Of a DNA stretch of 35,298 nt, positions 34,286-35,298 are shown in pieces. Location: positions 1 through 35,298 of the forward strand of contig JAPLBB010000024.1 of assembly GCA_026392945.1 (NCBI GenBank), written 5' to 3'. Positions within the stretch are counted from its first letter, which is position 1. Every line of letters begins with the position of its first letter. The notes beneath the pieces are model-generated. The model was given only the letters and a program-made list of their open reading frames with translations. It did not search any database and was not told the origin of the DNA. Both the position numbers and the translations under genes were made by a program. This stretch comes from Actinomycetota bacterium. Lineage in GTDB: Bacteria > Actinomycetota > Actinomycetes > Nanopelagicales > Nanopelagicaceae.

Positions 34286-34756
34286 TTAACTAGCAACCGC
34301 AATCTTGGCTGGCCGGCCCGGAAGTCGCTTACTTTGAATTACTTGACCTTCATCAAATAACTCTCCTCCCCATACTCCGCATGGCTCAGCTCTGGAGAGT
34401 GCGCCCTGTAAGCACTTTGCTTGCATTGGGCAACCGCCACATAACGCCTTAGCTTTGGCGATCATTGGAACTTCCTCGCTGAAGAAAAGCTCTGGATCGG
34501 CCGAGTGACAAGGCAGGCTGCTCAGCTTGGCGGGCTCAGTAATAGTAGGTACGAAAGGATTATCAGCGCGCTTATATCCATCCTTAGCCTTATTACTCTT
34601 ATTACCGGCATGGGTAGTAGAGGAGTTGCTGGCGTAATCGGTATAGGAGATAACTGGGGCATCGTCAAAAGCCCAGGTGATATCACCTAATCCAATTTTT
34701 GCAGTTGGGCCTTCTGCCCAACCTGGGATAAGTAGTTCGCTGAAGAGAACGGTCAT
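34286..34756 (-). CDS. whiB7: WhiB7-like Fe-S cluster transcription regulator
   Basis: 156 residues from ATG 34756 (GTG 34765 also in frame; SD-like AAAGG favours 34756). Four cluster cysteines, Cys83, Cys106, Cys109 and Cys115, with GVWGG at 127-131 and the C-terminal AT-hook-like LPGRPAK at 145-151. The AT-hook and the location beside uvrD are WhiB7 features; WhiB7 activates intrinsic antibiotic-resistance and redox genes with the main sigma factor. The first 75 residues are Ser/Thr/Asn-rich and unlike other WhiB proteins. Upstream stand two tiny coupled ORFs and an intrinsic terminator. Its product as WhiB7 proper, not another WhiB, is likely but not certain. Confidence 0.82.
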   Translation of the reverse strand: MTVLFSELLIPGWAEGPTAKIGLGDITWAFDDAPVISYTDYASNSSTTHAGNKSNKAKDGYKRADNPFVPTITEPAKLSSLPCHSADPELFFSEEVPMIAKAKALCGGCPMQAKCLQGALSRAEPCGVWGGELFDEGQVIQSKRLPGRPAKIAVAS

Positions 34757-34761
34757 CGTTC

Positions 34762-34788
34762 TCACCTTTCCTTTCGGTTGTCATTCAT
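34762..34788 (-). CDS. Leader uORF2 before whiB7 (8 codons)
   Basis: MNDNRKER then TGA, ending five bases before the whiB7 ATG at 34756 and overlapping uORF1 by ATGA. The whiB7 SD lies inside it, so translation of this ORF would occlude or couple to whiB7. Known whiB7 genes in mycobacteria are controlled through leader uORFs, which makes this worth testing. Confidence 0.35.
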   Translation of the reverse strand: MNDNRKER

Positions 34789-34814
34789 TTGTTTGGTTCT
34801 TTTTGCTTTGCCAT
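34785..34814 (-). CDS. Leader uORF1 before whiB7 (9 codons)
   Basis: MAKQKEPNK then TGA; basic mini-peptide. No SD is seen in front, and the AT-rich TAAATAATAAA just upstream could be a -10, giving a near-leaderless mRNA. Its TGA overlaps the ATG of uORF2 (ATGA at 34785-34788). Translation has not been shown; could be chance. Confidence 0.35.
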   Translation of the reverse strand: MAKQKEPNK

Positions 34815-34847
34815 TTTGGCTTTTTATTATTTAGAAGATATTTAGAT

Positions 34848-34889
34848 AAAAGAAAAAGGGCCCCGAATCATAAGATTCGCGGGCCCCTT
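34848..34889 (-). terminator. Intrinsic terminator or attenuator upstream of whiB7
   Basis: On the minus strand a GC-rich stem (GGGCCC-G-C bulge-GAATC with GATTC-GGGGCCC, ATAA-type loop) runs into TTTTTCTTTT. On the plus strand no T run follows, so it acts toward whiB7. It begins about 17 bases behind the stop of the small ORF at 34905, and lies 34 bases before uORF1. Either it simply ends the uvrD transcript or it attenuates whiB7. Confidence 0.85.
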
Positions 34890-34904
34890 GGCTTCTATCT
34901 CGGA

Positions 34905-35099
34905 TTAACCGATATAGCCCCCAGGGGTGCGATCTGATGTAAAGGTATAAAAACCCTTATTAGAGCGCTTATTGGTCCAGTCTGTGCGATATGAAGAGGT
35001 CGCAGCAGCGGATGAAATGGCAGGCCAATTAACAGCGGCTGCAGGTGCAGCAACTGTGATCTGATTAATTAACTTTGCCATGTGGCAAGGGTAAAGCAT
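34905..35099 (-). CDS. Small Ala/Ser/Thr-rich protein of unknown function
   Basis: 64 residues from ATG 35099 (or 58 from ATG 35081, MAKLINQITVAAP; TTG 35117 also opens the frame). Composition: a hydrophobic, Ala-rich first part and SSYRTDWTNKRSNKGFYTFTSDRTPGGYIG-like ending that looks structured (Tyr, Phe, Trp, Gly). No membrane helix, no known motif. It starts 20 bases after the helicase stop and ends 17 bases before the terminator, so it fits as a real small gene of the uvrD operon. Could also be a regulatory uORF. Confidence 0.5.
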   Translation of the reverse strand: MLYPCHMAKLINQITVAAPAAAVNWPAISSAAATSSYRTDWTNKRSNKGFYTFTSDRTPGGYIG

Positions 35100-35118
35100 G
35101 GGCCTGCTTTGATGCAAC

Positions 35119-35298
35119 TTAATTAAATTGCGCTAAAAATACGCTGGGCTTGCCCGCATAGGTAATTTGGATTCGCTGCTTAGCCCTAGTAACTCCGACA
35201 TAAAACAGCCTGCGCTCTTCATTTAAATCATTACCCATCGGTAGCACGCCATCAGATACCCCAATTAAAAACAGGTGATTCCATTCAAGTCCTTTAGC
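35119..35298 (-). CDS. UvrD/PcrA-type DNA helicase, C-terminal end (cut by window edge)
   Basis: The last 59 residues: KGLEWNHLFLIGVSDGVLPM (motif V/Va) and ERRLFYVGVTRAK (motif VI) are unmistakable SF1 helicase. The stop follows motif VI by only about 20 residues, so there is no HRDC or zinc-finger tail of the kind found at the end of mycobacterial UvrD2. The position next to whiB7 nevertheless suggests a uvrD2 equivalent. Confidence 0.93.
   Translation of the reverse strand, partial: AKGLEWNHLFLIGVSDGVLPMGNDLNEERRLFYVGVTRAKQRIQITYAGKPSVFLAQFN

Follow-up and report, generated by a model that had tools for sequence, protein, structure and literature searches.

The leader of whiB7 in the window (the whole 35,298-nt stretch of DNA analysed here) is very probably a transcription attenuator of the type known from whiB7/wblC, in which translation of an upstream open reading frame (uORF) would decide between a terminator and an antiterminator. 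The parts of this attenuator, their conservation, the constraint on the uORF frame, the pairing matched within each genus and the alternative folds are read directly from the leaders compared below. A role for the ribosome in this leader, as put forward in the original prediction, is very likely, acting through a 58-aa uORF and not through the pair of mini-ORFs to which control had been ascribed.

The window comes from a small-genome actinobacterium of the freshwater lineage acI (Nanopelagicaceae), and its closest whiB7 loci belong to Candidatus Nanopelagicus/Planktophila and other Nanopelagicaceae records. Homologues of whiB7 were found in 23 of the 25 genomes of the genus and in 140 of the 151 of the family. 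We gathered 23 leaders from the genus (L001-L023), about 60 from elsewhere in the family and another 20 at the level of the class. Promoter and uORF counts within the genus rest on the 20 leaders long enough to include the region, and comparisons of the uORF and the terminator on 68 leaders from 12 genera. A literature search for Planktophila together with WhiB7 found no paper on the leader in this lineage.

The whiB7 gene and its promoter

The gene (34286-34756, minus strand) starts at the ATG at 34756-34754. Its product has a WhiB domain (Pfam Whib, E=7.5e-15), four cysteines, a GVWGG motif and a C-terminal AT-hook, which identify it as a WhiB7/WblC orthologue by the domain, the cysteines, G(V/I)WGG and the hook; a search of NCBIfam gave no match for WhiB. 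Compared with the reference motifs EPW and KRPRGRPRK (PMC6282962), the window protein carries EPC as its SigA-contact triplet and KRLPGRPAK as its hook. Throughout the genus, EPC or EPV stands beside GVWGG where mycobacterial WhiB7 has the SigA-contacting EPW, and KR-x-PGRP-[AV]K replaces the reference hook. The Shine-Dalgarno (SD) region of whiB7, AAGGAAAGGTGAGAACG (34757-34773, minus strand), is 100% identical in 20 genus leaders, and its SD, CGAAAGGAAAGGUGAG, forms a duplex of -12.1 kcal/mol with the 16S tail. A GTG at 34765 was ruled out as the start codon; the SD fits the ATG at 34756 much better.

Upstream of whiB7 lies the 3′ end of a UvrD-family helicase gene (35119-35298, minus strand; Pfam UvrD_C, E=8.5e-16), whose frame and stop codon (35121-35119) were read from the sequence. 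A uvrD-type gene is presumably found near whiB7 in M. tuberculosis too. Overlapping the uvrD stop codon is a SigA-type promoter of WhiB7 type, ATTTAATTAAgTTGCAT-N18-TACCCT (35128-35088, minus strand), common to all 20 genus leaders that reach it. Its AT-rich box lies immediately 5′ of the -35 hexamer (ATTTAATTAA-g-TTGCAT, 35112-35128), the two together showing 97% majority identity in these leaders, and the -10 hexamer TACCCT, of the TANNNT form (35088-35093), has 92% identity and reads TA[CT][CT]CT in every one of them. Beyond the genus, about 40 leaders, covering most of the family, carry the form TTAATT-N-TTGC-N-TANNNT. A scan of the leader for sigma-70 consensus promoters reported no promoter, and no terminator on the minus strand; its patterns are strict, which is why it came back blank, and the promoter emerged from the comparison of leaders.

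As published, the autoregulated promoter of WhiB7 has an AT-rich motif directly 5′ of a SigA -35 element (PMC3905903), which the promoter predicted in the window fits. The window's own genome holds a single match to the WhiB7 promoter pattern, at whiB7 itself. Three complete genomes of the genus have one clear copy each, plus one or two chance-like matches. WhiB7 may thus control very few genes here, or its other targets may carry looser promoters.

The upstream open reading frame

Between the promoter and whiB7 lies a 58-aa uORF, MAKLINQITVAAPAAAVNWPAISSAAATSSYRTDWTNKRSNKGFYTFTSDRTPGGYIG (34905-35081, minus strand), which the original prediction had mentioned as a small ORF 5′ of the terminator. 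All 20 genus leaders extending this far keep it as a reading frame, with lengths of 58-75 codons that differ by whole codons. In the window its start has no SD (duplex energy +0.9 kcal/mol), and most of the genus has little or none; the SD of the mycobacterial form, a variable feature and not a defining one, is thus missing here. The distance from the -10 hexamer to the uORF ATG is 6-7 nt in all 20 leaders, although the bases in between are only 58% identical, and this constant spacing despite varying bases indicates that the uORF is, apparently, leaderless in the window and in the genus. Transcription is predicted to start at or near 35081.

Elsewhere in the family, the uORF is also apparently leaderless in g38, and it is SD-led, some 29-76 nt 3′ of the -10 hexamer, in g3, g6, g10 and g39. 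Within a single bacterial family, then, uORF initiation appears to change from one mode to the other, as seen when L095-L099 are set against L054-L059, L082-L085 and L100-L106.

The encoded peptides are unusual in composition. In the window (35081-34936, minus strand) and across the 12 genera, Ala, Ser, Thr, His, Trp, Tyr and Phe are abundant, Glu is almost absent (2% of expected), and Ile, Asp, Leu, Gln and Gly are scarce. For the part of the peptide 5′ of the antiterminator, Ala, Ser and Thr together make up 0.45 of residues in the 12 genera, against 0.24 in windows of ordinary proteins, and Glu, Asp, Gln, Leu, Ile and Gly 0.11 against 0.39. The uORF of the window has 0.49 and 0.08, values each matched by about 0.2% of protein windows, with 25 proteins of the window as amino-acid background. 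These figures are descriptive, because the residue groups were picked after the single-residue table had been seen.

Terminator, antiterminator and stop-codon hairpin

Downstream of the uORF stop codon stands an intrinsic terminator (34849-34889, minus strand; 94% identity in the genus), with the stem AAGGGGCCCGCGAAUC-loop-GAUUCGGGGCCCUU at 34889-34856 followed by a T tract, a stability of about -25 kcal/mol and an orientation toward whiB7. The original prediction was right to place on this strand a terminator facing whiB7 and, behind it, an AT-rich tract (34848-34815). The distance from the uORF stop to the terminator stem is 15 nt in the window and 10-22 nt in the 68 leaders of 12 genera, and more distant families of the class include several with the same layout of uORF and terminator.

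The end of the uORF can form an antiterminator that excludes this terminator. Its 5′ arm, GATCGCACCCCTGG... (34913-34934, minus strand), lies within the last uORF codons, and the terminator 5′ arm doubles as its 3′ arm: in the nascent-RNA fold of the window, GAUCGCaCCCCUGG...CCaAGGGGcccGCGaAUC makes 14 pairs to the terminator 5′ arm, at -27.8 kcal/mol. When folded up to the terminator loop, all 68 leaders of the 12 genera form this structure. Nested in it is a hairpin around the uORF stop codon, TATATCGG-TTAAT-CCGAGATA (34895-34916, minus strand, in the window), found inside the antiterminator in the nascent folds inspected as examples.

Antiterminator arms from the same genus pair at -18.2 kcal/mol, as opposed to -15.5 kcal/mol when swapped between genera (sd 0.63), a difference reached in 0 of 20,000 permutations, with matched changes in the core of the arms (CUUGG/CCAAG, CCUGG/CCAGG and CCCGG/CCGGG); the stop-codon hairpin behaves likewise (-7.9 versus -5.6, again 0 of 20,000). 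When the last 11 uORF codons are recoded synonymously, the antiterminator becomes weaker on average in every genus (genus mean z about -1.6 to -4.6), and only 1% of synonymous recodings of the window uORF pair as well. The genus-matched pairing and the recoding result thus argue that the antiterminator is not a by-product. Counting pairs by column in a MAFFT alignment gave 6 pairs with double changes, compared with 3.0 in shuffles (9 of 500). This points the same way as the register-free arm swap but is weaker, since some genera are displaced by one column in the alignment. RNAalifold, run on a 36-sequence alignment, returned the terminator alone, as it is able to show only one of two mutually exclusive folds. 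In the complete leader the terminator fold is the more stable (-38.5 versus -27.8); antitermination must therefore depend on kinetics, the usual situation for attenuators.

The same data bear on whether the 58-aa ORF might instead encode a functional small protein, with the terminator ending its gene and whiB7 transcribed from a separate promoter downstream. The C-terminal half of the uORF is indeed conserved in the genus (95% identity), with pN (0.049) well below pS (0.185), and the terminator comes just after the stop codon, as such a gene would have it. Across genera, however, the peptide has no recognisable homology except over its final few codons; these form the pairing with the terminator, and their synonymous sites are constrained for RNA pairing. 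Moreover, g9 and g12 have lost the common Trp codon and kept the pairing of the arms, as CCCGG/CCGGG or CCCUGG/CCAGGG, and the 58-aa sequence has no match in Pfam and only a sub-threshold, chance match in NCBIfam (E 0.21). We consider a small-protein gene highly improbable, and favour the attenuator.

Mini-ORFs and AT-rich tract below the terminator

The original prediction assigned a promoter to the AT-rich tract that follows the terminator and placed behind it two mini-ORFs, at which stalled ribosomes would control whiB7 translation. The frames are real: MAKQKEPNK (34785-34814) and MNDNRKER (34762-34788), both on the minus strand, overlap in an ATGA, and the second, which covers the whiB7 SD, stops five bases short of the ATG of that gene, all exactly as claimed. 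Dinucleotide shuffles of this 93-nt stretch contain one ATG-started ORF of at least eight codons in 46% of cases, two such ORFs in 11% and a pair coupled by ATGA in 0.8%, which makes the arrangement mildly unusual in this single sequence. There is some trace of the second frame in relatives as well, with an ATG at -32/-31 in 14 of the 23 genus leaders and a MxDNRKER frame, intact, in 9.

Conservation, on the other hand, speaks against a regulatory role. As an ATG-started frame of at least eight codons, the first mini-ORF is private to the window among the 23 genus leaders; two relatives have a GTG version, and the others reach an early stop after a few codons or lack a start. The second is broken in more than half of the relatives: 6 of the 23 have no ATG at the site, 5 carry a 1-nt deletion that shifts the frame across whiB7, and in 3 it is replaced by a frame that enters whiB7 in phase. 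The two frames are therefore not jointly conserved, and broken frames in relatives are what the original prediction had itself named as refuting it. The 3′ half of the second mini-ORF looks conserved because the whiB7 SD, which it covers, is 100% conserved. Neither mini-ORF has an SD of its own (-0.1 and -0.9 kcal/mol, as against -12.1 for whiB7).

The AT-rich tract (61% identity) and the first mini-ORF (63%) are among the least conserved parts of the genus leaders, and the tract compares poorly as a promoter with the AT-rich/-35 box (97%) and the -10 hexamer (92%) upstream. In one genus leader, L022, a short repeat (about CCACCACAAGGAAA) has multiplied in the interval from the terminator to whiB7, about 30-110 nt before the gene, so this stretch tolerates insertions. 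Judging from these comparisons, the two mini-ORFs are most probably incidental, and control of whiB7 by them, with transcription from the AT-rich tract, is very unlikely.

Discussion

Attenuation through a uORF is established for whiB7/wblC (PMC4128351, PMC11550727, PMC13236596), and for the leader described here we propose the following course of events. The SigA-type promoter at the end of uvrD, with its WhiB7 AT-rich box, would give an RNA beginning at or next to the uORF ATG. Under free translation, the ribosome would reach the uORF stop codon and cover the last codons together with the stop-codon hairpin; no antiterminator could then form, the terminator at 34889-34849 would fold, and transcription would end about 100 nt before whiB7. 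Were the ribosome held before the final third of the uORF, by ribosome-targeting drugs or a shortage of charged tRNA, the last codons would be left free to pair with the terminator 5′ arm, enclosing the stop-codon hairpin, and the polymerase would read through into whiB7. The strong SD of whiB7 would then direct its translation, and WhiB7 would activate its own promoter. For the transcription start, the dependence on the ribosome, the induction by antibiotics and the autoactivation, this scheme follows experiments in Mycobacterium and Streptomyces, and these features would carry over by analogy. A leader acting without translation, such as a small-molecule riboswitch or a protein-bound attenuator, is exceedingly improbable: the whole leader is highly structured (z = -5.4), but an Rfam scan found nothing near gathering scores, the uORF frame is kept through whole-codon length changes, the peptide composition is strongly non-random in frame, and the precedent systems are uORF-based.

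A whiB7 leader with a uORF and a Rho-independent terminator has reportedly been described in mycobacteria (Dinan 2014; Burian & Thompson 2018; Poulton 2024), and a wblC leader in Streptomyces coelicolor (Lee, Lee & Roe 2022). With the mycobacterial leaders of M. tuberculosis, M. marinum and M. bovis, that of the window shares the AT-rich box before the -35 element, a long leader, a uORF, a terminator at the uORF 3′ end and whiB7 downstream. The compact tandem arrangement had been considered different from the mycobacterial one; once the 58-aa uORF is recognised, the layout is that of mycobacteria and streptomycetes. A difference lies in initiation: the mycobacterial uORF is preceded, at a distance of about 10 nt, by a consensus SD (PMC4128351), whereas that of the window, with TANNNT 6-7 nt before its ATG, has no SD and is apparently leaderless. 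In S. coelicolor, according to the summary in a review, uORF translation favours the terminator and blocked translation the antiterminator (PMC11550727), the same translation-dependent choice that we propose. Leaderless uORFs also serve as sensors in the mycobacterial cysteine attenuators (Canestrari et al., as cited in PMC13236596), which, as described there, attenuate translation and read cysteine codons, in contrast to the transcription attenuator of whiB7. Relative to the known attenuator, the newer details are thus the leaderless start, the nested stop-codon hairpin and a peptide rich in Ala, Ser and Thr and poor in acidic residues and Gly.

What the peptide composition might mean can be considered in the light of drug-induced arrest. 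Phenicols and oxazolidinones arrest ribosomes with Ala, then Ser or Thr, at the penultimate position (PMC8987054), and alanine starvation is a published trigger of whiB7, as cited in PMC11550727 and PMC13236596. A reasonable, if tentative, reading is that the whiB7 uORF of Nanopelagicaceae, leaderless in the genus, is a sensor whose peptide is tuned to detect stalled elongation in general, possibly by carrying many of these -1 arrest residues along with His and aromatics, hardly any Glu, and little Asp, Gln, Leu, Ile or Gly. Since the stop-codon hairpin sits within the antiterminator, defects in elongation and possibly also in termination might then switch whiB7 on.

A more general lesson is that, in a leader, what looks like a conserved 'small gene' ahead of a terminator can be the sensor, and neat mini-ORFs behind that terminator can be chance. 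The more than 60 natural variants with matched changes in their arms constitute a ready test set for antiterminator function. The whiB7 attenuator has been studied in pathogens and antibiotic producers; our analysis extends it to free-living freshwater actinobacteria with tiny genomes, where its presence suggests that this sensor is an old stress device.
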